Below are positions 12,495 through 31,401 of a DNA stretch of 44,232 bases, piece by piece (position 1 is the stretch's first letter; every line of letters starts with the position of its first letter). The stretch lies in the NCBI GenBank assembly GCA_029881725.1, contig JAOUMB010000020.1, positions 1 through 44,232 on the forward strand, in the 5' to 3' direction. The notes below the pieces were generated by a model. It was not told the origin of the DNA. It was given only the letters and a program-made list of their open reading frames with translations, and searched no databases. A program made the position numbers and the translations under genes. The DNA is from Nitrospirota bacterium (GTDB lineage Bacteria > Nitrospirota > JACRHL01).

Positions 12495-12510
12495 TGGCAC
12501 ACCAGTTGCT
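12495..12510 (+). promoter_or_regulatory. Sigma-54-type promoter before the VanZ/propeller operon
   Basis: The sequence TGGCACACCAGTTGCT has GG-N10-GC spacing and departs from TGGCACG-N4-TTGCW at only one base. It begins 7 bases after the moeA stop. It would start transcription near 12521, 53 bases before the VanZ-like ATG. Confidence 0.6.
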
Positions 12511-14286: not shown

Positions 14287-15549
14287 ATGAATCCCGCCCT
14301 CTCCCCCCGCCTGCGCAAACTGTTGCTGGCCCCGCTATTGGCCTTGGGCGTGCTGTCCATTATGGGCACCTCCCAAGTCGTGGACCCCAAGGCCCACGTT
14401 CGCATTGCCGTGGACGACGGGGGAACGGCGGTACTGGCGGTGGAGTTCGACGGCCAGTTGTTCCTCCAGGATTACGACACCTCCGGGTGGGGTCCGATCA
14501 TCAGCGGCGGCTCCGTGTCGGAGATGGCGCTGGCCATGGACAGCGGCGGGTATGCCCGTGCGGTATGGACCCACGCCCCCACCGGCCTGTTTCAGGCGGG
14601 CTTTGACCCCACCACCGGAAAATGGGGCAACTCCACACTCGCGACCAGCGCCCCGGAGTATTCCTATCAACCGGATCTGCACCTGGACCCGGCGGGGCTC
14701 GGCATGGCCGCCTGGTATCAGACCGCCGGTCCCGGGATCGGGCACATCCGGGCAGTTCCGTTGGATTTGACCGGCACGCCTGGCCTGGCCTTGGACATTC
14801 CCACCTACTACGCCGCGGACCCCCGCGCCGCCGTCATCGACGCCACCGGCAACGGCATGGTGGTGTGGCGTGAAGGGCGGACCGCGAACGACTACACCAC
14901 CCCGCAGGTGTGGGCCTCCGGATTCCTGAGCGGACCGCTGCCGGCCTGGAATTTATCGCCAACGCAAATCGACACAAACTCAGGAATTCTACCAATCACC
15001 GACCTGCGCCTCGCCAGCGACGGTGCGGGAAACGCCATTGCGGTGTGGAGCCAGGGCATTGAAATTTACGCCAACGACTCTATATCCGGCGCCGGTTGGG
15101 GTACGGCCCAGCGGATCGACCCGGGCACCGTTGGCAACATACCTCTCGGCCTGCAACTGTCCATGGATTTGAGTGGCAACGCCGTTGTCGCGTGGATGGA
15201 CGGCAGTGACTTGCTCGCGTTGCGCTATGACGCCGGGCTCATTACCCCTGCCTGGGAAGCATCACCCACGGTGCTCGACACCCTCCCACCCGGGGTGATT
15301 CCGGCGCCGCCCGCGCTGGATACCGACGGCACCGGCGGAGCGGTGGTGGCCTGGAGCGGGGCCGACCCGTCGGTGATTTCCTACCGGGTGTACGACCCGG
15401 CAACGCTGCTGGCCCCCATATGGGGACCGGCCAATACCCTGTTGGGCATCGGAAACCACGTGGCGGTGTCCATGGACGGGCGGGTAATCGGCATCGCCTG
15501 GAGCGATTCCGGCGGACACGAACAGGCCACCATCATCACCCTGCCTTAA
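14287..15549 (+). CDS. Exported seven-repeat (beta-propeller-like) protein B
   Basis: The 420-residue protein is a paralogue of the preceding one. It shares the signal-peptide core LLLAPLLALGVLSIMG, the block TTPQVWAS, the block AVWSQGIEIYA and the same seven D-x-x-G-x-x-x-A-x-W repeats, here DATGNGMVVW, DGAGNAIAVW, DLSGNAVVAW and others. A ribosome site (GAAAGGAAA) precedes ATG 14287. Divergence is substantial, so the duplication is old. Its TAA overlaps the stop of the convergent TPR-barrel gene by three bases. Function is unknown; a propeller for ligand or surface binding is the simplest reading. Confidence 0.7.
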   Translation: MNPALSPRLRKLLLAPLLALGVLSIMGTSQVVDPKAHVRIAVDDGGTAVLAVEFDGQLFLQDYDTSGWGPIISGGSVSEMALAMDSGGYARAVWTHAPTGLFQAGFDPTTGKWGNSTLATSAPEYSYQPDLHLDPAGLGMAAWYQTAGPGIGHIRAVPLDLTGTPGLALDIPTYYAADPRAAVIDATGNGMVVWREGRTANDYTTPQVWASGFLSGPLPAWNLSPTQIDTNSGILPITDLRLASDGAGNAIAVWSQGIEIYANDSISGAGWGTAQRIDPGTVGNIPLGLQLSMDLSGNAVVAWMDGSDLLALRYDAGLITPAWEASPTVLDTLPPGVIPAPPALDTDGTGGAVVAWSGADPSVISYRVYDPATLLAPIWGPANTLLGIGNHVAVSMDGRVIGIAWSDSGGHEQATIITLP

Positions 15550-17015
15550 TAACGCCCGGTAACCGCCACGGTGTAGACGTTGCGCTGGTAATCCCGGTCG
15601 GTGTAGTCCGCCGCGCTGTCGATGTTGGAACGGCGCAGTTCGCGCCTCCAGCCCAGTTCCAGTTCCAGGAGATTCCCCAGATCACGGGTGACGGCCAGAT
15701 CCATGCTCAGTTTGTGGTCCTGGCGCTTGCGGCGGGTGGCGCCGAAATTCCATACATCCGCATCCAGGTACCCCCGGTACTGATAACGCGCCCCCAGGTC
15801 CACGGTCAGGCCGAAAAAGAACGGCTGCACCAGCGACACGGACGGGGAGAACCCCGCGTGGGAATACGACACGTGCTGAACCCCGGCGACGGCCCCGAAG
15901 TCGGGCCGGTCCTTGCGGTCCAGATACTCCGCGCTCACGGAGGTATACAGGCTGCCCATTCCCAGCGGCCGGTAGCGGGCCAGAATCGCCTCGGCCCCGG
16001 TGCCGGAAAGATAGCCGTAGGCGGCGGACGCGTCGTACCGCTTGATGCGCGTGTACAGATAGGTGGAGCGCTGCCCGCCCCGGGAAAGCGTCCATCGCGC
16101 GCCCGCCGTGTGGGATGCCATATAGGCGGAGGTGCCAAGAGTGGAACTGCTGAAGGCGTATTCCCAACGGGAACGGCGGGGTGTTTTTCGGTGCTCCATC
16201 CGCACCCGCAGGGTGTGGGTGGTCAGGTCCAACTGGCTGAGGGTGTCGTACTCACGGGCGAACAGGTCGTAACGCACCTCCATCCGCCGCGCGCCGGATA
16301 ACGCAAAGGAACGGGCCAGCCGCGCCGACAGGCCGATGCGTTGGTCCGACTGGTTGCCGGTGGTGGGGTCGTCCGGCGTGGCAAACACGTTGCTGTCGAA
16401 TTCCCGCCGCAGGGTAAGGCGGGCGTCCCATCGGTGATCCGGGGATTTACGGGCAGCCTCCGTGGGGTCGGAGGCCGGGGTGGCGCCCGGCAGGTTTCCG
16501 TCCAGGGCGGCCAGCATCTGCACCGCGCTTTTTCCGCTTCCGGTGCCCGGCCCTACTGCCGCCGCCTCCTGAAACAGTGCCCGTGCGTCCGCCTCGCGCC
16601 CCTGCTTCAGGCGCGCCAGCCCGGCGTTCAGATAGGCGGCGGAGGCCAGTTGGGGGCGGGCCCGGGCAGTGCTCAGGAACTCGGAGGCGGCCTGCTCCCA
16701 CTGGGCAGCACGGAACAACAAGATGGCCAGATTGTAATGGGCCAGTCCGTGGGTGGGGTCCAGGGCCAGGGTTTTTTCAAACGCCGCACGGGCATCCCCG
16801 GAGCGTTCCTGCTCGCTGTAGGCCACCCCCAGCAGGAACCAAACCCGCGCGTTGTCCGGTTCCTCGCGGGATTCGGTCTCCAGCAGCGGAATCGCCACTT
16901 CGTAGCGGCGGTCGTCCATCAACACCTCCGCCTCCGGCAGGTGATCGGCCCACGTCAGCGACGGCAACCCCACCCCCAGAGCCAGAACTCCGGCCAGCAC
17001 ACGTTTCAGGGTCAT
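15546..17015 (-). CDS. TPR protein with C-terminal outer-membrane beta-barrel (SLAM-like)
   Basis: The 489-residue protein has a signal peptide (MTLKRVLAGVLALGVGLPSLTWA) and four or five TPR motifs at about 25-175 (ARVWFLLGVAYSEQ, GLAHYNLAILLFRAAQWEQA, AAYLNAGLARLKQGREADA). The C-terminal half of amphipathic strands opens with RREFDSNVFATPDD and ends in an aromatic residue (VTGRY). This layout matches SLAM/DUF560-like outer-membrane proteins that move lipoproteins to the cell surface, and also some polysaccharide export barrels. I cannot choose between them. ATG 17015 has a GGGAGAAGGGG ribosome site; the longer form would begin within a terminator. A surface-displayed giant lipoprotein lies 4.7 kb away and could be a client. 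Confidence 0.7.
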   Translation of the reverse strand: MTLKRVLAGVLALGVGLPSLTWADHLPEAEVLMDDRRYEVAIPLLETESREEPDNARVWFLLGVAYSEQERSGDARAAFEKTLALDPTHGLAHYNLAILLFRAAQWEQAASEFLSTARARPQLASAAYLNAGLARLKQGREADARALFQEAAAVGPGTGSGKSAVQMLAALDGNLPGATPASDPTEAARKSPDHRWDARLTLRREFDSNVFATPDDPTTGNQSDQRIGLSARLARSFALSGARRMEVRYDLFAREYDTLSQLDLTTHTLRVRMEHRKTPRRSRWEYAFSSSTLGTSAYMASHTAGARWTLSRGGQRSTYLYTRIKRYDASAAYGYLSGTGAEAILARYRPLGMGSLYTSVSAEYLDRKDRPDFGAVAGVQHVSYSHAGFSPSVSLVQPFFFGLTVDLGARYQYRGYLDADVWNFGATRRKRQDHKLSMDLAVTRDLGNLLELELGWRRELRRSNIDSAADYTDRDYQRNVYTVAVTGRY

Positions 17016-17040: not shown

Positions 17041-17075
17041 AATAAAAAGGGGAGCCGTTGCAGCGGCTCCCCTTT
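17041..17075 (-). terminator. Terminator between the acidic-protein gene and the TPR-barrel gene
   Basis: A perfect 12-base stem (17046-17057 with 17064-17075) with a 6-base loop is followed on the minus strand by a T-rich run. It lies after the acidic-protein gene and only about 25 bases before the TPR-barrel ATG, so it may act as a partial terminator or attenuator. Confidence 0.8.
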
Positions 17076-17139: not shown

Positions 17140-17607
17140 CTACAGCGGCATGTGACCTTCGGCGGCACCGGCGTTGTCCTCCGCCAGTTCGGCAGCGTCG
17201 TTCGCGTGATCCGCGGCGTCGTCGGCAGCGTCCGCAGCATCGTCGGCGTGGTCGCTGGCATCATCCGCGTCCTCGTCCGCGTCATCGTCCATGTCGTCCA
17301 TCTGACCGTGATCGTCGTCGGCCTGTCCGTGGTCATCGTCGGCCTGTCCATGATCCTCATCGGCGGCGGAACTGGCATCGTTGGGAATGTCGATGGACAC
17401 CAGGTGGATCTCGTTTCCGTCGTCATCGGTGACGGTGATCTCAATGGAGCCGTCCACGTCGCCTTCGTCGTGCACGATGTCCATGTGGATTTCCACCGGC
17501 AGGTCCACATCGTCCGGCACATGGGAGGTCGGCTCCTGGGCCAGGGCCGGCATGGCGGCGGCCAGGGTGATGGCGGCGGAGAACGTCAGGATGTTGTTCA
17601 GTTTCAT
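17140..17607 (-). CDS. Exported, highly acidic Asp/His-rich protein
   Basis: The 155-residue protein has a signal peptide (MKLNNILTFSAAITLAAAMPALA). A short ordered part follows at 24-78 (VEIHMDIVHDEGDVDGSIEITVTDDDGNE), then a long low-complexity tail. The tail repeats DDHGQAD at 84-103 and then uses Asp/Ala heptad-like units (DDAADAADDAADHANDAAE). No family is recognised. The Asp/His content suggests divalent-cation binding in the periplasm or at the surface, by inference only. ATG 17607 has a GGAG ribosome site. It lies 43 bases after the anti-sigma gene and is probably the last gene of the ECF sigma unit, so it may be a main output. Confidence 0.75.
   Translation of the reverse strand: MKLNNILTFSAAITLAAAMPALAQEPTSHVPDDVDLPVEIHMDIVHDEGDVDGSIEITVTDDDGNEIHLVSIDIPNDASSAADEDHGQADDDHGQADDDHGQMDDMDDDADEDADDASDHADDAADAADDAADHANDAAELAEDNAGAAEGHMPL
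17317..17358 (-). repeat. 21-bp tandem repeat inside the acidic-protein gene
   Basis: Two adjacent 21-base units (17317-17337 and 17338-17358), with a third degenerate unit beside them, encode the DDHGQAD repeat. In-frame multiples of 21 make length variation between strains likely. Confidence 0.7.
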
Positions 17608-17650: not shown

Positions 17651-18385
17651 TTACACACCATTCACATGCACGCCGATGGATTTCTCCCGGCGCGCCGATC
17701 CCTTCTCCAACGTCGCGGTAACGGTCCATTCGCCCCGGGCCACGCCGCGCACCTTCAGCGGGATGTGGTTAATCCCCCGCTCCAGATCGCCCACCCAGGT
17801 CAGCGATGCGGACTCGATCAACTGGCCATTCACCACCGCGCGCACCCCTTCCGGCAGGGTGATGGAAAAACGCACCCCCTGCACCGGGCGGGCGGCGTCG
17901 AAACGGATGTTCACCACCGCATCGGTGCCCATGTCCAGATGGGTGCCTCCATAGGCGGCGGCAATCGCTTGCGGTGCGGCTCCGCCGCTGACCATCGGAG
18001 CGGTGGGGCGATCCACCACGAACAGCAGCGCCATCCCGGCCACCGCGCAGGTGGCAAGACCGGCAGCAAAGCCCCGGCCCCAGGCACCGAAGCGGGTGAA
18101 AAAACGCCCCCGGGCCGGCCGGGCCGGCCGGGCCACGGCCCGCGCACGCATGGCTTCGGTTTCGTTCAACAGCCGCGCGTGCAACCGCTGCTCAAACCCG
18201 GCAGGCAGCGCGGGGGCCTCGATTTCCGCCAACGCGCTCACCAGCCGCCGGGTGGCCTTCAGCTCGCCCGCACAGGCCGGACATCCGACCAGGTGAGCAT
18301 CCATCCGGCCACGGGCCAGCGGTGGTAACGACTGGTCCAGATAGTCGACGAAACGTTCGCGGATTTGATCGCAGCTGGAATCCAT
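17651..18385 (-). CDS. Anti-sigma factor with zinc-finger (ZAS) domain, single-pass membrane
   Basis: The 244-residue protein opens with CDQIRERFVDYLDQ and the zinc motif H31-x3-C35-x2-C38 (HLVGCPAC), the hallmark of ZAS anti-sigma domains that hold ECF sigma factors at the membrane. A linker rich in Ala-Arg-Pro leads to one transmembrane segment (about 105-124). The C-terminal extracytoplasmic domain of about 115 residues has a beta-rich pattern (RFSITLPEGVRAVVNG). ATG 18385 was chosen at the start of the conserved domain; the longer frame overlaps the sigma gene and reads as shadow. Unlike typical pairs it does not overlap the sigma gene; 196 bases separate them and hold a promoter-like sequence. 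Confidence 0.85.
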   Translation of the reverse strand: MDSSCDQIRERFVDYLDQSLPPLARGRMDAHLVGCPACAGELKATRRLVSALAEIEAPALPAGFEQRLHARLLNETEAMRARAVARPARPARGRFFTRFGAWGRGFAAGLATCAVAGMALLFVVDRPTAPMVSGGAAPQAIAAAYGGTHLDMGTDAVVNIRFDAARPVQGVRFSITLPEGVRAVVNGQLIESASLTWVGDLERGINHIPLKVRGVARGEWTVTATLEKGSARREKSIGVHVNGV

Positions 18386-18413
18386 GATTGACCTCAAAAA
18401 AGCCTCATGCCCA

Positions 18414-18442
18414 TTAGACGAGCAGCGGATGAAAAAAGTTCC
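18414..18442 (-). promoter_or_regulatory. RpoE-type ECF promoter before the anti-sigma gene
   Basis: On the minus strand GGAACTT (18436-18442) is followed after 17 bases by TCTAA (18414-18418), close to the E. coli sigma-E consensus. The -35 element sits inside a 7-base inverted repeat (GCAGCGG and CCGCTGC). Transcription would cover the anti-sigma and acidic-protein genes. Confidence 0.6.
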
Positions 18443-18581
18443 CGCCGCTGCCGGATTTTTTTCGTACGCATATCCACGTATATCAAGGGATTGCGCGGCG
18501 GGTGGGAAAATTTTACCCCTTCCGGCACATGGAAATACGCAGGTTAAGACGAAATTCCGGCAGTTGTGGAAAAAGGCCGGA

Positions 18582-19169
18582 TCAGGTGACCGGGGAGTGC
18601 TCATCCGCGGTGAGCAGCGCACGCAACCGTTCGCGGGCGCGGGACAGGCGGCTCTTGATGGTGCCTTCCACTTCGCCGGTGATGGCGGCGATCTCCCGGT
18701 AGGAAAATCCCTGCAAATCGCGCAGCACCACCAGGTCGCGCAGGTCCGGGGGCAATTTGAAGATTCCCGCCAGCAGCCACTCCTCGCGCTCCTGGCTGCG
18801 CAGGTCATTAAAGAAGCGCTCCATGGCCTCGGCGGCGGCCGCGGGGGGCTCGGAGCCGTCCTCGGGCATCTCCAGTTGCGGCATGGACGGCTTTTTCACG
18901 TGGTCGAGGAAGGTGGTGTAGATGATGCGGAACAGCCAGGTGGAGAACGCCGATTTTCCGGCAAAGGAGCCGATGGCGCGATAGGCTTTGATGAACGCCT
19001 CCTGACACACGTCCTCGGCCACGGTGGGGTCGCCGGTGTGCCGCATGGCATAGGCGTAGGCCCGCTTCATGTAAGGGGAAAGCAGTTCCTCGAAGGCCAC
19101 CGGATCGCCCTGGGCAGCGGCCTGGGCCAGATGCTGCTCGCGGCTGCGTATGTCGTTGGTGTCACTCAT
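18582..19169 (-). CDS. ECF RNA polymerase sigma factor (RpoE-like)
   Basis: The 195-residue protein contains sigma region 2 (about 25-93, with DVCQEAFIKAYRAIGSFAGKSAFSTWLFRI) and region 4 (about 139-186, LPPDLRDLVVLRDLQGFSYREIAAITGEVEGTIKSR split by the usual turn). It lacks region 3, as ECF factors do. Similarity is closest to the RpoE-like class, which agrees with the GGAACTT promoter before its anti-sigma gene. Stimuli cannot be read from sequence, but the neighbours are all envelope proteins. A sigma-54-type element lies directly upstream. Confidence 0.92.
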   Translation of the reverse strand: MSDTNDIRSREQHLAQAAAQGDPVAFEELLSPYMKRAYAYAMRHTGDPTVAEDVCQEAFIKAYRAIGSFAGKSAFSTWLFRIIYTTFLDHVKKPSMPQLEMPEDGSEPPAAAAEAMERFFNDLRSQEREEWLLAGIFKLPPDLRDLVVLRDLQGFSYREIAAITGEVEGTIKSRLSRARERLRALLTADEHSPVT

Positions 19170-19195
19170 CTCGGCTCGGTCCGTCTGTCACATGC

Positions 19196-19211
19196 AGCAA
19201 GCAGCGTGCCA
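19196..19211 (-). promoter_or_regulatory. Sigma-54-type promoter before the ECF sigma gene
   Basis: The minus-strand sequence TGGCACGCTGCTTGCT matches TGGCACG-N4-TTGCW at every defined base. It lies in the 62-base gap between the MipA-like stop and the sigma ATG. Transcription would start near 19185, leaving about 15 bases of leader. Confidence 0.65.
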
Positions 19212-19231
19212 CATTCCCGCCCGGAGTCGAA

Positions 19232-20110
19232 TCACGGCGGCCGGTCGCCATTCACCCGACGCCCGCTGACCATCCGTGTGGAAGCGGCAAAGGTCCAGTT
19301 GACCCCCACCCCGGCGGTAATGCTGGTGGGGGTTTCCACCAGCGGGCTGGCGCCGACCACCCCCGGTCCCAGGTGCCTGCCCCCAACAAACCCACCCACC
19401 GTCCAGCGCGGGTGCAGACGCCAACCAAAGGACAACCGCACCCCCACCGACTGCAACCCGGCCGGGGCCTCCCAGGCGGGGCGCTCCGGTGTGGAAAAGG
19501 CGGCAGGCACACCATAATAGTAGGCGTTCAATTCCCGATCGGCCCAGCGTGCGGACAGGGTGGAAGTGAACTGCACCCCCCCGTCGTGCCCCCGGGGGCG
19601 CCATACCAGACGAATTTGTGGCTCGGCCAGATAACCCCGGTACGCATTGTCGTTGAAGGCGGCAAAGCTCCACGCGCCGCGCACCCCCACCCGCACCAGC
19701 GCCTCGTGATGCTCCCCCCGGGACAGCATGCGCCCGGCGCGGGGTCCCAGTTGCACCACCATGTCCAGATCCGGCATGCTCTGGCGACGCGCCTCTTCGC
19801 TGGAATCCACCGGCACCCAGCCACCCCCGGAAAGATCGATCCAACTGGTCGGCGTTTCCAGGAACACCACCCGCGCCGATCGCCCGGAAGCACGCAGGTG
19901 CCGCCCCCGATAGATGAACCACGGCGCCCCGGCAATCAGCGCGTGCCGGTTGGCGGATCCGGGATAGCTTTCGAAATCCGCCCACCCGAGGGCCAGCCCC
20001 GCCTCCCAGGCCGGCTTGGGCAGTTCGTGCTCGGCGGCGGCGAGCGTGCTGGTAAGCACCCCGAGTAGTAAAGCGGCCACCCACGGACCGTGCCGCATCA
20101 ACAATCCCAT
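19232..20110 (-). CDS. MipA/OmpV-like outer-membrane protein
   Basis: The 292-residue protein has a signal peptide (HGPWVAALLLGVLTSTLAAA) and then PAWEAGLALGWADFESYPGS, which resembles the opening of the MipA/OmpV family. A run of alternating amphipathic strands follows and the protein ends in a barrel-like region (ITAGVGVNWTF). MipA scaffolds a peptidoglycan hydrolase and synthase in E. coli, but many members are simple outer-membrane barrels, so the exact role is open. I chose ATG 20110; ATG 20098 is equally possible. The frame is open further upstream, but that part is Arg/Pro-rich and not signal-like. Confidence 0.7.
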   Translation of the reverse strand: MGLLMRHGPWVAALLLGVLTSTLAAAEHELPKPAWEAGLALGWADFESYPGSANRHALIAGAPWFIYRGRHLRASGRSARVVFLETPTSWIDLSGGGWVPVDSSEEARRQSMPDLDMVVQLGPRAGRMLSRGEHHEALVRVGVRGAWSFAAFNDNAYRGYLAEPQIRLVWRPRGHDGGVQFTSTLSARWADRELNAYYYGVPAAFSTPERPAWEAPAGLQSVGVRLSFGWRLHPRWTVGGFVGGRHLGPGVVGASPLVETPTSITAGVGVNWTFAASTRMVSGRRVNGDRPP

Positions 20111-20167
20111 GCGCAGAGCATACCCCGCCCGCGGGCAACCCGCCACCGTGGGGGCGCAGGGTTGCCG

Positions 20168-20196
20168 TTGACCGCCCTTTTTCAGATCGGTACAAT
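20168..20196 (+). promoter_or_regulatory. Sigma-70 promoter for the NYN-domain gene
   Basis: TTGACC (20168-20173) and TACAAT (20191-20196) are spaced by 17 bases, close to consensus. Transcription near 20203 gives a leader of about 100 bases before ATG 20304, which contains the short palindrome GGACCAGGGTCC. Confidence 0.65.
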
Positions 20197-20303
20197 CCGA
20201 ACCGTTTCGTATTGCCGGTGCCATTTTGGATTGGTGTTCCGCCCCCTGTCAGGTGTCCGGGCGGACCAGGGTCCGGTTAAATTTCTATTTGTCGAGTATT
20301 GCC

Positions 20304-21626: not shown

Positions 21627-21682
21627 TTCAGAGGGTCACTGTGTTCACGGGGAACCATATCCCGGCGAAGGGGATCGCAAGC

Positions 21683-24600
21683 ATGAGTCTGTCGTGTCGT
21701 TCGTGTATGACGGGGTTCCGCCTGTTGCTGGCGGCGACGCTGGCCCTTGCCCTTTCCGCTTGCGGCGGCAGCGTGGGCGGCGGTTCCAATCAGGCCAGCA
21801 TTTCGTTTCTGCTCACCCCGAATCTCTCGCAACGGGTGGTGGACCAGAACACCATGCGCGTGAGCGTCATCTTCGACAAGGGCACCTCCCGGGAACGCAC
21901 CCACATCATCGACCGCCCCGACCGCTACGATTACCTGTACCTGTACGAAACCGGCAACGACCAGATTCGCTTCACCGTTCCGGCGGAACCCGGCCACCAC
22001 ACGGTCTCGTTCAGCATCTCCAAGGACGAGGACCCGACTTCCGACCACGACGATGTGGAACTGGTGCATAACGAGTCCGAGTGTGACGTGGACGGGAACC
22101 ACGCCAACGACCAGGAAATCGATGAGTTCGACTACCCGGACGACGACAAGGACGGTTACTCCAACCACGACGAGGAGGAGGAAGGGACCGACCACCACGA
22201 CCCCCACAGCCACCCCAATTACCCGCCGGTGGTCGTGCTGGGCCCGGACCAGACGGTGCCCGAGGGCACCCTGGTCACCGTGGACGCCTCCGCCTCCAGC
22301 GACTACGAAAAATCCCCGCTTACCTTCATCTGGACCCAGTTGCCAACCAGCCCACCGGTCGTCCTTACCGACGCAGACAAGGCCATCGCCACGTTTACCG
22401 CCCCTCTGGTGGCGCAGGACACGGTGCTCGCCTTCCAGGTGGCGGTCAGCGACGGGGCCTCCACCACCACCGGGGTCACCCTGATCACGGTGCTCAACAC
22501 AGACAACGAGCCGCCCTCCGCCAACGCCGGTGCGCCGCAGACCGTGGGTGAAAACCTGCCGGTATCCCTGGACGGCAGCCAGTCGTCCGACCCCAACGGC
22601 AATCCCCTCACCTTCGCCTGGATCCAGACCGGTGGCCCCACCGTTTCCCTGACCGGCGCGAACACCGCCAACCCCACCTTCACCTCGCCATTCGTGCTGA
22701 GCGTGCAGGTGCTGCAATTTTCGCTCACGGTTACCGATAGCTGGGGGGCCACCAGTCTGGCCACCACCACGGTGACCGTGCTGGACAACATCAACGAACT
22801 CCCCATCGCCAATGCCGGGCCCGACCAGACCGTGGGCGAGCAGGTAACCGTGGTGCTGGACGGCAGCGCGTCCTCCGATCCGAACGGGGAGGCCATCACC
22901 TATTCCTGGACCCAGATCGGCGGCCCCGCCGTCCTTCTCACCGGGAACGATACCGCCACCCCCGCCTTCACCAGCCCGCTGGTGACCGGACCCACAACGC
23001 TGACCTTCCAGTTGATGGTCTCCGACTCCCGGGGCGGCGCGTCCCTGGCCACCACCACGGTCACCGTGGTGGACACCATTAACGACGCGCCGGTGGCCAA
23101 TGCCGGACCGCCGCAGACCGTGGGCGAGCAGGTGCCCGTGGTTCTCGACGCCACCGGCTCCACCGACCCCAACGGCAATCCGCTCACCTTCCTTTGGACC
23201 CAGACCGGCGGTCAGGCCGTCACCCTGTCCGGCGCTACCACCGCCACCCCGGCCTTCACCTCGCCCACCGTACTCACCGACAGCGTACTCACCTTCAGCG
23301 TGGCGGTAAGCGACGGCACCTATACCACCACCGCCACCACCACGGTGACCGTGGTCAACGACGTGAACGAGGTTCCCGTTGCCAGCGCCGGGGCGCCCCA
23401 AACCGTGACCGAAGGGGCCTCCGTAACCCTCTCCGGCAGTGCCACCGACCCCAACGGCGAGGCGATTACCTTCGCCTGGACCCAGACTGGCGGCCCGGCG
23501 GTGACCCTGATCGGCGCCAATACCGCCACCCCCACCTTCACCGCACCGCTGGTGACCGCCTCTACCGTGTTGACCTTTGAGCTGGTGGTCACCGATTCCC
23601 TGGGAGGCGCAAGCTCCCCCGCCAGCACCACAGTGACCGTGCTGGACAGCGTCAACGACGCCCCCCTGGCCAACGCAGGAGCCCCCCAGACCGTGGGCGA
23701 GCAGGTGCCGGTGACCCTCAGCGCCGCGGGCTCCTCCGACCCAAACAACGACCCGCTCACCTTCACCTGGACCCAGACCGGCGGCCCGGCGGTTTCCCTC
23801 ACCGGCGCCGCTACCGGGCAGCCCGGGTTTACCTCGCCCACGGTGCTGGCCGACACCGTGCTCACCTTCAGCGTGGCGGTCAGTGACGGGGCCTCCACCA
23901 CCACGGCCACCACCACGGTGACGGTGGTCAACGACGTGAACGAGGCCCCCACCGCCGACGCCGGGGCCCCGCAAACCGTGGGCGGCGGCGTGCTGGTCAC
24001 CCTCACCGGCAGCGGCTCCGACCCCAACGGCGACGCCATCACCTTTGCCTGGACCCAGTCCGGCGGCGAACCCGTCACCCTTTCCGGCGCCACCACCGCC
24101 ACCCCAACCCTGACCACCCCCTCGGTGGCGGGTCCCCTGACCTTCACGCTGGTCGTCACCGACTCCCTGGCTGCGGCCAGCCTCCCCGCCACCACCACGG
24201 TTAGCGTGGTTATCGGCGCCAGTGGCGCACCCTCGGCCAACGCGGGTCCAGGGCAAGTCGTGGGGGAAGGGGTGGCCGTGACCCTGGATGCCTCCGGCTC
24301 CACCGACCCCAACAACGACCCACTCACCTTCGTCTGGACTCAGACCGGCGGCCCCCTGGTTTCCCTCACCGGCGGGAATACCGCACAACCCGGATTCACC
24401 TCACCCACGGTGCTGGTGGATACGGTGCTCACCTTCACGGTGGCGGTCAGCGACGGAACCAACACCACCACCGCCACCACCACGGTGACGGTGATCAATG
24501 ACGTGAACGAACCGCCCACCGCCAGCGCCGGTCCCAACCAGACCGTGGGGGAACAGGTGCCGGTGACCCTTTCGGGCAGCGGCTCGGACCCCAACGGCGG

Positions 24601-27600
24601 ACTGGTCACCTTCGCCTGGACCCAGGTGGGCGGCCCGACCGTGGCCCTGACCGGCGCCAACACCGCCACCCCGTCCCTGACCACCCCCATGGTGTCCGGC
24701 CTGACGGTGCTGATCTTTGAACTGGTGGTCACCGACGCCCAAGGCGGCGTGAGCCTTCCCGCCACCACCACCGTTACCGTGCTGGACAGCGTCAACGACG
24801 CCCCGCTGGCGGATGCGGGCGCGCCGCAAACCGTGGGCGAAGGGGTGGCCGTGGGGCTCAGCGCCGCGGGCTCCTCCGACCCCAACGGCGACCCGCTCAC
24901 CTTCCTTTGGACCCAGACCGGCGGCCCCACCGTGATCCTGACCGGCACCACCACCGTCGCCCCGGCGTTCATCTCGCCCACGGTGCTGGCGGATACCGTG
25001 CTGTCTTTCGACGTGGCGGTCTCCGACGGCACCACCACCACCGCCGCCAGCACCACGGTGACGGTGCTCAACGACGTGAACGAACTGCCCACCGCCGCCG
25101 CGGGCGCGGGCCAGACCGTGGCCGAAGGGGTGCTGGTCACCCTCACCGGCAGCGGGTCCGACCCCAATGGCGATCCCATTACCTTTGCCTGGACCCAGAC
25201 CGGTGGCCCCTCCGTGGCCCTGACCGGTGCCACTACCGCCACCCCCACCTTCATCAGCCCCACGGTGCCGGCCCCCACGGTGCTGATCTTTGAACTGGCG
25301 GTGACCGATTCCCTGGGCGGCGCCAGCCCCCCGGCCACCACCACGGTCACCGTCATCAACGGCGCCAATATTCCCCCGGTGGCCAGCGCGGGGGCGCCGC
25401 AAACCGTGAACGAACTGGCGCCGGTGGCCCTCAACGCCACTCTCTCCTACGACCCGGACGGCGACCCGATCACCTTCGCCTGGACCCAGACCGGCGGCCC
25501 CTCGGTCACCCTGTCCGGCGCCTCCACCGCCACCCCGGCCTTCACCTCGCCACGGGTGCTGGCGTCCACCGCCCTCACCTTCAGCGTGGCGGTCAGTGAC
25601 GGCATCGCCACCAGCTCCGCCACCACCACGGTCACGGTGCTGAACAACCTCAACGAATCACCGGTGGCCGATGCGGGCCCGTCCAAAACCGTGGGCGAAA
25701 ACCTGCCCGTGGCCCTGGACGGCAACGCCTCCTACGACCCCAACGGCGACCCCATCACCTATGTCTGGGTCCAGACCGGCGGCCCGGCCGTCACCCTCAC
25801 CGGCGGGAACACGGTACTGCCCCTGTTCACCTCGCCCACGGTGACCGTCCTCACCGACCTGACCTTTGAACTGGTGGTCATCGATATCCACAACGCGGTG
25901 AGCGCCCCGTCCGCCACCACGGTCACCGTGAGTCCCGCCGTCAATCTGCCTCCGGTGGCGGATGCCGGTGCCGATCAATCCGTGCCCGCCACGGTCACCG
26001 TCACCCTGGACGGCTCCGCCTCCAGTGACCCCGAAGGCGATCCGTTGACCTTTGCCTGGCTGCAAACCGCCGGCCCCGCCGTCACCCTGAGCGACCCGGC
26101 GGCGGTGATGCCCACCTTCGTCGCCCCCGGCCCCGGCCCGCTGACGTTGACCTTCGACCTGACCGTGACCGATTCCCGCGGCGCGGCCAGCCTGCCCACC
26201 ACCACCACGGTCACCGTGACCGGCGGCGTCAACCAGCCGCCCACCGCCGATGCCGGGCCCATGCGCTACGGCCGCGCCGGCAGCCCGGTGACCGCCAGCG
26301 CCAGCGCCTCCATCGATCCGGATGGCCATTCCCTGCACTACCAGTGGCAGGTGCCCACCGGGGTGCCGGTGGTGGGCGGCCTCAACCGCTCCACCCTCAC
26401 GGTCATCACCCCGGATCACGTGCACGGACCCATTACGGTAAGCCTCACGGTCAGCGACGGCCTGCTCACCTCGCCGCCGGCCACCACCCAGGTGCAGGGC
26501 ATCCCCATCACCGGCAACGCGCGGCACACCTGCGTGATCCGCGGTGATCAATCCCTGTGGTGCTGGGGCGACAACACGGATGGCAAGCTGGGCGACGGCA
26601 CCACCGTCAACCGCGCCGCCGCGGTGGAACCGGTGTCCGGCAGCACCTGGCGCTCGGTATCAGCGGGTCCGGCCAGCACCTGCGGGATCCGCACCGACGG
26701 CTCCCTGTGGTGCTGGGGCGAACCACTCATTGGCGTGGGCCAATGGACCAGTCCCATCCAGGTGGCGCCCACCGCCGACTGGTCCCACGTGGGCACCGGC
26801 GCCGATCACGCCTGCGCCATCAAGACCGACGGCTCCCTGTGGTGCTGGGGCACCGGCACCCGCGGCCAGTTGGGCCAGGGCGACCCGGCCAACCCCGGTG
26901 CGCTGGAAGGGTTACTGAACATCTCACTACCCACCCGGGTGGGGCTGGACACCAACTGGCGTCAGGTGGCCCCGGGCGGCGGGCACACCTGCGCGGTGCG
27001 CACCGACGACACCCTGTGGTGCTGGGGCAGCGCCGGGTATGAATACGGCGCGCCCACGCCCATTCCGTTTGCCTACATCACCAGCCCCATCCCCATGCAC
27101 ACGGCGGACAACTGGGCCTCGGTGACCGTGGGAGAACACGGCACCTGTGCCACCCCCACCAGCGGCGGCGTGGTGTGCTGGGGCGAAAACGCCACCGGCA
27201 ACGCCGTCACCGTGGACGCCACCGGCGACTGGCGGCAGGTGGGCATGGGCGTGGCCCGTGCCTCCGCCGTGCAGAACGAGAGCGCTTACGCCTGCGGCGT
27301 CAAGGGCGACGGCACCCTGTGGTGCTGGGGTGCCCCCAACTACCTGTGGGGCGGCCTGATCCCCCTGCCGTACAGCCCCACCGCCATCACCCGGGTGAAT
27401 GCGGACACCGACTGGATGACCGCCATCCCCGGCGCGTTCCACGTGTGCGCCATGAAGGGCGACGGCAGTGTCCTGTGCTGGGGCAACAACCAGCATGGCC
27501 AGCAGGGGCGTGACGTGCCGGTGTACATCACCAGCCCGCAGCCGGTGGTGACCGCCATTGCCGACTGGCAACAGTTGAGCGCCAACGACAACCGCAGTTG

Positions 27601-28693
27601 CGCCACCCGCGCCGACAACACCCTGTGGTGCTGGGGCAATCACATGCTCACCACCGGCGTGCTGGACGGGGCCGACATCACCCCCTCCGATACCGCGCTG
27701 GACACGGCTCCGGGGGGACTCGGCCTCGGCACCGGCCACAGTTGCCTGATCCGCCCGGACGGCACCCTGTGGTGCTGGGGAGCCAACCGCTTTGGCCAGC
27801 TTGGTCAGGGCAGCACCGAGGCCCTGCCGGACAGCGTGCCGCTGCAGGTGGGCTTTGCCACCGACTGGGTGGCGGTGGCACCGGGCGGGCTGTTCACCTG
27901 TGCCATCCGCCAGAACCCGTTGGGCGAGCGCACCCTGTGGTGCTGGGGCTCCAACGACCGGGGCCAGGTCGGTATCGGCTCCACCGGCCTGCCGGTGGTG
28001 TGGCCGACCCAGGTGGAGGCCCAAATCGATTGGGACATGGTGAGCACCTCCGGTGTGTCCGCCTGTGGCATTCGCGACAACCCGGTGGACGGCCGCACCC
28101 TGTGGTGCTGGGGAGAAACCTGGCTCGACCTGCCCATCGGCGGCCTGACCAAGGACGGCTTCCGCGACTTCCCCACCTCCCCCACGCGGGTGGATCTGGC
28201 CACCAACTGGGCCGAAGTGGGCGTAAGTGACAACCACGCCTGCGCCCGCCGCACGGACAACACCCTGTGGTGCTGGGGCCGCAACCGCTATTGGGAAGTG
28301 GGCAACAACAGCGGCAGCTACCAACTGTCGCCGCTCCAGATCGGCCTCGCCGAATGGGCCTCCATATCGGTGAGCCCCATCGAGCCGTACAGTTGCGCCA
28401 TCAAGACCGACGGCACCCTGTGGTGCTGGGGGCGCAACCGCACCGGCGCCCTGGGCAACGGCCGTTACGAGATCGGCACCGTATTCAACTTGGAATCCCG
28501 CCCGGCCCAGGTGGGGGTGGATACGGATTGGGTTTCCGTTTCGGCGGGCTTCCCCAACGTGTGCGGGATTCGGCAGGCGGGCATCCCCGCCCAGCGCACC
28601 GCCTGGTGCTGGGGTTCCGACTGGGGCGGTGCGGTGGGCATTGGCGCCGGCTACAACGAACAGATCGTGCCGATCACCCTGCCGCTGCCATAG
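21683..28693 (+). CDS. Giant surface lipoprotein with 15 PKD-like domains and 14 RCC1-like repeats
   Basis: This is a lipoprotein precursor of about 2336 residues. The signal ends in LALSACGG, a clean lipobox. An unrecognised N-terminal domain (about 30-150) is followed by a very acidic, calcium-loop-like stretch (DDDKDGYSNHDEEEEG, about 152-170). Residues 181 to about 1607 hold 15 PKD-like beta-sandwich domains of 92-96 residues (typically ANAGAPQTVGE, DPNGDPLTFAWTQTGGP, ATTTVTV). The rest, to 2336, is 14 RCC1-like blades, each with a conserved C and then LWCWG. PKD and RCC1 arrays usually build adhesive stalks and propeller heads. ATG 21683 gives a normal lipoprotein n-region; GTG 21641, which has a better ribosome site, and ATG 21707 are alternatives. 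Confidence 0.88.
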   Translation: MSLSCRSCMTGFRLLLAATLALALSACGGSVGGGSNQASISFLLTPNLSQRVVDQNTMRVSVIFDKGTSRERTHIIDRPDRYDYLYLYETGNDQIRFTVPAEPGHHTVSFSISKDEDPTSDHDDVELVHNESECDVDGNHANDQEIDEFDYPDDDKDGYSNHDEEEEGTDHHDPHSHPNYPPVVVLGPDQTVPEGTLVTVDASASSDYEKSPLTFIWTQLPTSPPVVLTDADKAIATFTAPLVAQDTVLAFQVAVSDGASTTTGVTLITVLNTDNEPPSANAGAPQTVGENLPVSLDGSQSSDPNGNPLTFAWIQTGGPTVSLTGANTANPTFTSPFVLSVQVLQFSLTVTDSWGATSLATTTVTVLDNINELPIANAGPDQTVGEQVTVVLDGSASSDPNGEAITYSWTQIGGPAVLLTGNDTATPAFTSPLVTGPTTLTFQLMVSDSRGGASLATTTVTVVDTINDAPVANAGPPQTVGEQVPVVLDATGSTDPNGNPLTFLWTQTGGQAVTLSGATTATPAFTSPTVLTDSVLTFSVAVSDGTYTTTATTTVTVVNDVNEVPVASAGAPQTVTEGASVTLSGSATDPNGEAITFAWTQTGGPAVTLIGANTATPTFTAPLVTASTVLTFELVVTDSLGGASSPASTTVTVLDSVNDAPLANAGAPQTVGEQVPVTLSAAGSSDPNNDPLTFTWTQTGGPAVSLTGAATGQPGFTSPTVLADTVLTFSVAVSDGASTTTATTTVTVVNDVNEAPTADAGAPQTVGGGVLVTLTGSGSDPNGDAITFAWTQSGGEPVTLSGATTATPTLTTPSVAGPLTFTLVVTDSLAAASLPATTTVSVVIGASGAPSANAGPGQVVGEGVAVTLDASGSTDPNNDPLTFVWTQTGGPLVSLTGGNTAQPGFTSPTVLVDTVLTFTVAVSDGTNTTTATTTVTVINDVNEPPTASAGPNQTVGEQVPVTLSGSGSDPNGGLVTFAWTQVGGPTVALTGANTATPSLTTPMVSGLTVLIFELVVTDAQGGVSLPATTTVTVLDSVNDAPLADAGAPQTVGEGVAVGLSAAGSSDPNGDPLTFLWTQTGGPTVILTGTTTVAPAFISPTVLADTVLSFDVAVSDGTTTTAASTTVTVLNDVNELPTAAAGAGQTVAEGVLVTLTGSGSDPNGDPITFAWTQTGGPSVALTGATTATPTFISPTVPAPTVLIFELAVTDSLGGASPPATTTVTVINGANIPPVASAGAPQTVNELAPVALNATLSYDPDGDPITFAWTQTGGPSVTLSGASTATPAFTSPRVLASTALTFSVAVSDGIATSSATTTVTVLNNLNESPVADAGPSKTVGENLPVALDGNASYDPNGDPITYVWVQTGGPAVTLTGGNTVLPLFTSPTVTVLTDLTFELVVIDIHNAVSAPSATTVTVSPAVNLPPVADAGADQSVPATVTVTLDGSASSDPEGDPLTFAWLQTAGPAVTLSDPAAVMPTFVAPGPGPLTLTFDLTVTDSRGAASLPTTTTVTVTGGVNQPPTADAGPMRYGRAGSPVTASASASIDPDGHSLHYQWQVPTGVPVVGGLNRSTLTVITPDHVHGPITVSLTVSDGLLTSPPATTQVQGIPITGNARHTCVIRGDQSLWCWGDNTDGKLGDGTTVNRAAAVEPVSGSTWRSVSAGPASTCGIRTDGSLWCWGEPLIGVGQWTSPIQVAPTADWSHVGTGADHACAIKTDGSLWCWGTGTRGQLGQGDPANPGALEGLLNISLPTRVGLDTNWRQVAPGGGHTCAVRTDDTLWCWGSAGYEYGAPTPIPFAYITSPIPMHTADNWASVTVGEHGTCATPTSGGVVCWGENATGNAVTVDATGDWRQVGMGVARASAVQNESAYACGVKGDGTLWCWGAPNYLWGGLIPLPYSPTAITRVNADTDWMTAIPGAFHVCAMKGDGSVLCWGNNQHGQQGRDVPVYITSPQPVVTAIADWQQLSANDNRSCATRADNTLWCWGNHMLTTGVLDGADITPSDTALDTAPGGLGLGTGHSCLIRPDGTLWCWGANRFGQLGQGSTEALPDSVPLQVGFATDWVAVAPGGLFTCAIRQNPLGERTLWCWGSNDRGQVGIGSTGLPVVWPTQVEAQIDWDMVSTSGVSACGIRDNPVDGRTLWCWGETWLDLPIGGLTKDGFRDFPTSPTRVDLATNWAEVGVSDNHACARRTDNTLWCWGRNRYWEVGNNSGSYQLSPLQIGLAEWASISVSPIEPYSCAIKTDGTLWCWGRNRTGALGNGRYEIGTVFNLESRPAQVGVDTDWVSVSAGFPNVCGIRQAGIPAQRTAWCWGSDWGGAVGIGAGYNEQIVPITLPLP
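22223..26506 (+). repeat. Array of 15 PKD-like domain repeats
   Basis: Fifteen units of about 285 bases run head to tail. From unit 4 to unit 11 they alternate between two subtypes: one with DPNGNPLTF and SVAVSDG, the other with a one-residue-shorter SGSATDPNG and FELVVTDSLGGAS. Two-domain steps measure 567-573 bases and four-domain steps 1140 bases. The last unit is divergent and lacks the WTQTGGP core. Confidence 0.85.
26507..28690 (+). repeat. Array of 14 RCC1-like repeats
   Basis: Fourteen blades each end in CWG (mostly LWCWG) after a cysteine-containing strand such as HTCVIR or CAIKTDG. RCC1 propellers have seven blades, so 14 suggests two complete propellers. The paired cysteines in nearly every blade suggest disulfides, which fits a location outside the cytoplasm. 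Confidence 0.85.

Positions 28694-31013: not shown

Positions 31014-31401
<388 letters not shown>

Follow-up and report, generated by a model that had tools for sequence, protein, structure and literature searches.

The stretch of DNA analysed here, 44,232 nucleotides of a Nitrospirota genome (hereafter the window), raises the question of which factor drives the gene of a stress-type (ECF) sigma: this sigma itself, as in the usual self-activation, or another sigma factor. The gene in question (18582..19169, minus strand) encodes 195 aa with regions 2 and 4 only (domain matches to Sigma70_r2 and r4_2), as expected of an ECF sigma; among the NCBIfam models listed, the superfamily model alone passed its cut-off, with no equivalog or subfamily model that would define its ECF group. 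Upstream, on the same strand, lies a gene for a MipA-family outer-membrane protein (19232..20110, domain matches), and the 62-bp gap between the two genes holds a 16-base site pointing toward the sigma gene. This site, TGGCACGCTGCTTGCT in the minus-strand reading of 19196-19211 (TGGCAC-GCTGC-TTGCT), is a predicted sigma-54 (-24/-12) promoter located 26 nt from the ATG, which would place the transcription start at ~19185 and leave a leader of only ~16 nt. A first-pass annotation had claimed a match to the -24/-12 consensus at every defined base, in the correct intergenic gap and orientation, and both statements hold: TGGCAC-N5-TTGCW is fully matched, including the GG at -24 and the GC at -12. 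The longer textbook consensus for sigma-54 is YTGGCACG-N4-TTGCW, against which the sole miss is the first Y (here G), for a score of 16.8 of 17.8. An exact site on the right strand of a given 62-bp gap is expected by chance with a probability of ~6e-5. Across the whole window, six sites with at most one mismatch were found against 2.1 expected, a number reached by 2 of 100 shuffles, and two of these six are exact.

The second exact motif (12495-12510, plus strand) lies between a moeA-like gene, 6 nt away, and a gene for a small membrane protein, 63 nt further on, behind which a pair of paralogous exported proteins extends to 15549; the gene assigned to this site has no homolog in the three related genomes G001-G003. 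These three and the genome of the window (G000) are the four genomes compared within the family, each from another genus. All the genomes compared here are draft MAGs, that of the window being a 2.96-Mb draft of 126 contigs and 98% complete.

A sigma-54 promoter requires its sigma factor and an activator, and rpoN, whose presence in the genome had been proposed as a check, was found in the four family genomes, that of the window included. In a search with the sigma-54 activator domain (PF00158), the latter also gave 12 strong hits and a weaker one. In the same 2.96 Mb, TGGCAC-N5-TTGCW occurs exactly six times, compared with one occurrence of the reversed-pattern control, and its other sites precede flhG-fliA, moaA, a c-di-GMP-I riboswitch leader and a probable flagellar-region gene adjoining a sigma-54 activator. 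Over the four family genomes, sites of the TTGCT type number 29 against 4 for the reversed pattern, with fliQ, pilin and pseudopilin genes and a second moaA among the genes concerned (gene names beyond the family searches were read from translations). Judged by the company it keeps, the exact motif is thus a mark of typical sigma-54 genes in these genomes. Two of these cases recur in a second genus and deserve mention on their own. An exact site lies ~60 nt upstream of moaA (molybdenum cofactor synthesis) in two genera (L005 1501-1516, L020 1501-1516). Similarly, in two genera (L006 1390-1516 and L025 1387-1516, both minus strand) an exact motif is followed directly by a c-di-GMP-I riboswitch and the ORF of a small membrane protein, a predicted stacking of sigma-54 and c-di-GMP control on one small gene.

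Conservation at orthologous sigma genes, another of the checks put forward, gave a positive answer in two of the three other family genera. The ortholog of G003 (locus L009, 70% protein identity) is preceded by TGGCACAAGGCTTGCT (1460-1475), 19 nt before its ATG, and that of G001 (locus L010, 49% identity) by TGGCACGCGGATTGCT (2111-2126), 16 nt before its ATG, so that all 11 defined bases are identical in the three genera and the motif stays within 16-26 nt of the start codon. The fourth genus, G002, departs from this picture, since its ortholog (L013, 44% identity) has no exact site and the best candidate, TGGCGC-N5-TTGCA, lies ~260 nt upstream. A purely fortuitous 16-mer could be read into this missing site, as well as into the one exact site returned by the reversed control in the genome of the window. 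Such a chance match seems, nevertheless, hardly credible: the motif keeps a near-identical position in three genera, despite 60 bp of upstream flanks that cannot be aligned among them (alignment z of 0.9, 0.9 and -0.5), and the genome-wide rate of sites gives a joint probability of ~2e-8 for finding both ortholog matches within 100 bp.

The same comparison bears on a second explanation, in which the sigma gene would be transcribed mainly by read-through from mipA and the sigma-54 site would contribute little. The short gap and the shared strand of both genes fit this reading; moreover, on either strand of 18380-20300 the only sigma-70-type sites detected are near 20168-20252, one of them a 9/12 minus-strand site upstream of mipA. 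However, the motif persists where the mipA-like gene ends ~450 bp before it, as in G003, or where a MazG-like gene takes the place of mipA, as in G001, which makes dominant read-through quite unlikely. A working sigma-54 promoter at 19196-19211, supplying the mRNA of the ECF sigma within the whole circuit described below, is the reading we favour, with a probability of roughly three in four. Against this reading, the three sigma genes preceded by this promoter would have very short leaders (~16, 9 and 6 nt) that lack a clear Shine-Dalgarno sequence and are shorter than those of most other sigma-54 genes in these genomes; nor did their upstream regions, when searched, show any convincing activator-binding dyad in common.

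Outside the family, three genomes (G048, G053 and G061) encode a sigma ~46-47% identical, with the same order of sigma and anti-sigma genes. Neither rpoN nor a sigma-54 element before the sigma gene was detected in any of them, an absence of rpoN that is only suggestive because at least two of these genomes are incomplete (77-81%). In G053 and G048, a TTGACA-N17-TTTAAT site, read by eye, is found before the sigma gene instead. Both genomes lack TTGCT-type sites, which is only partly informative given that 1-2 TTGCA-type sites exist in these assemblies of 77-81% completeness.

Downstream of the sigma gene, the unit continues with a zinc-finger (zf-HC2) anti-sigma factor anchored to the membrane (17651..18385, minus strand), as indicated by its domain, an H31-x3-C35-x2-C38 motif invariant in five orthologs and one predicted membrane helix at about residues 106-124, which presumably leaves the conserved C-terminal domain outside the cytoplasm. 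Next comes an exported acidic (D/H-rich) protein predicted from its sequence (17140..17607, minus strand), similar ones being found behind the anti-sigma gene in L011 and L013, and the unit ends at a hairpin resembling an intrinsic terminator, GGGGAGCCG-CTGCAA-CGGCTCCCC-TTTTT (17044..17072, minus strand, read by eye). Because this strong terminator-like hairpin precedes it, the following gene, for a protein with TPR and putative outer-membrane-barrel domain matches (15546..17015, minus strand), probably forms a separate unit. On the plus strand, the window also carries a tmRNA gene (31014-31401; Rfam RF00023, 195 bits) and a very long repetitive exported protein (21641-28693) with PKD-like and then RCC1-like repeats, read by eye, which is possibly a surface protein.

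Where, then, would the ECF sigma itself act? Between the sigma and anti-sigma genes lies a predicted ECF-type promoter, GGAACTT-N15-CGTCTAA (18414..18442, minus strand), 28 nt before the anti-sigma ATG. Elements of the form GGAACTT-N15-CGTC(T/A)AA occupy this place in the seven orthologous loci (the window, L009, L010, L011, L012, L013 and L044), G003 having the CGTCAAA variant, at 14-28 nt from the ATG where measured and with a 15-base spacer identical in all of them; the RNA fold of this gap is only modestly stable (z of -2.0). The element contains both a GGAACTT -35 and a GTCTAA-type -10, and resembles the sigma-E consensus of E. coli (GGAACTT / TCTAA). A survey of 61 genomes from the phylum gave nine copies of the exact element, all of them in sigma-bearing genomes (five of six), while the 55 genomes lacking the sigma have none (Fisher p ~1e-6); the remaining sigma-bearing genome has the CGTCAAA variant. 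This restriction to sigma-bearing genomes is good evidence that GGAACTT-N15-CGTCTAA is the cognate promoter of the ECF sigma.

Positive autoregulation is the rule for ECF operons (PMC8103513), and the sigma gene could accordingly be activated from a diverged or distant ECF promoter as well, in an ordinary positive autoregulation with an added sigma-54 input like that of E. coli rpoE. Our search was confined to consensus-like sites, and to that extent leaves room for such a promoter. Against it, no GGAAC...GTC-type site was found in the near upstream region of the sigma gene at any of the seven loci, none of which shows the layout of a classical self-activating operon, whereas the anti-sigma gene has one consensus in all of them; we therefore regard hidden self-activation as a minor possibility. 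The first-pass view of a two-sigma cascade under an enhancer-binding activator, in place of the usual self-activation, is thus favoured at the sequence level by rpoN, the PF00158 proteins, the conserved motif and the position of the ECF-type promoter.

Beyond the anti-sigma gene, candidate ECF targets in the genome of the window include an exported TPR protein (L130, with homolog L129 in G003), an exported Sel1-repeat protein (L135, with ortholog L131 in G001) and an alanine/proline-rich protein (L136, with ortholog L133 in G003). The leaders from promoter to start are long in L130, L123, L131 and L135 (~190-510 nt), unlike that of the anti-sigma gene. In L133 (G003) and L122 (G001) an exact sigma-54 site lies downstream of the ECF element on the same strand, at distances of 207 and 243 nt respectively, a tandem expected at ~4e-4 per ECF site, and L136 keeps a relaxed sigma-54 site (TGGCAT-N5-TTGCT) at the position corresponding to that of L133. 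Such tandem sites suggest a feed-forward arrangement on some targets.

The observed elements, namely conserved sites, an rpoN gene and a motif that goes together with the sigma across genomes, can be assembled into a circuit whose transcription, activator, signal and dynamics we infer. One of the enhancer-binding activators of the cell, together with sigma-54, would produce the mRNA of the ECF sigma, which the membrane zinc-finger anti-sigma would hold until an envelope signal releases it. Once freed, the sigma would recognise GGAACTT-N15-CGTCTAA before the anti-sigma gene and not before its own, so that, from the placement of this promoter, it would raise its own inhibitor in a direct negative feedback, along with exported and TPR/Sel1-type proteins. 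On some targets, the ECF promoter followed 200-250 nt further by a sigma-54 promoter would add the feed-forward branch. A further point weighs against this model, as read-through from the sigma-54 promoter would make anti-sigma too. In its widest form, we tentatively entertain a stable two-sigma circuit of Nitrospirota, where sigma-54 would be the sole supplier of an ECF sigma without positive autoregulation, this sigma would activate nothing but its inhibitor and genes of the envelope, tandem promoters on some targets would provide a feed-forward with a built-in shut-off, and relatives without detectable rpoN would retain the ECF part under a different input promoter.

Each half of the circuit has known precedents. 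The ECF gene hrpL of Pseudomonas syringae and Pantoea is transcribed by sigma-54 with HrpR/HrpS (PMC5263251), and the ECF exerts negative feedback by promoter occlusion (PMC5263251, PMC8103513); the locus described here shares with it, as predicted from sequence, both the sigma-54 promoter and a negative feedback by the ECF, but the phylum is unrelated and the feedback would proceed through an ECF-transcribed anti-sigma. In E. coli, rpoE P2 is a sigma-54 promoter with QseF (PMC6075780) and rseA P3 is a sigma-E-dependent promoter before the anti-sigma gene (PMC8595263), a similar pair of inputs. However, rpoE has several promoters, positive autoregulation included, and none of the ECF type was found before the sigma gene here; P3 lies inside rpoE, 228 nt from rseA, compared with the 14-28 nt given above. 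On the ECF side there is also a likeness to sigH-rshA of Corynebacterium glutamicum, where the anti-sigma gene alone is transcribed from the ECF-dependent promoter and sigH is not self-activated, its supply coming from four housekeeping promoters (PMC3489674) in contrast to the sigma-54 predicted here. Precedents thus exist both for ECF genes driven by sigma-54, in hrpL and E. coli rpoE, and for anti-sigma promoters driven by an ECF sigma, in rseA P3 and rshA, and what appears to be new is their combination in Nitrospirota: a sigma-54 input, no detectable positive autoregulation, an ECF-driven inhibitor and tandem target sites.

Altogether, the locus points to a sigma-54 to ECF cascade conserved at the sequence level beyond Pseudomonadota, in a phylum where gene regulation has seen little genetic work. 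With both promoters and a small regulon named, direct testing in a heterologous host becomes possible. Across the relatives compared, the ECF feedback core remains the same, whereas its sigma-54 input is apparently exchangeable for another.
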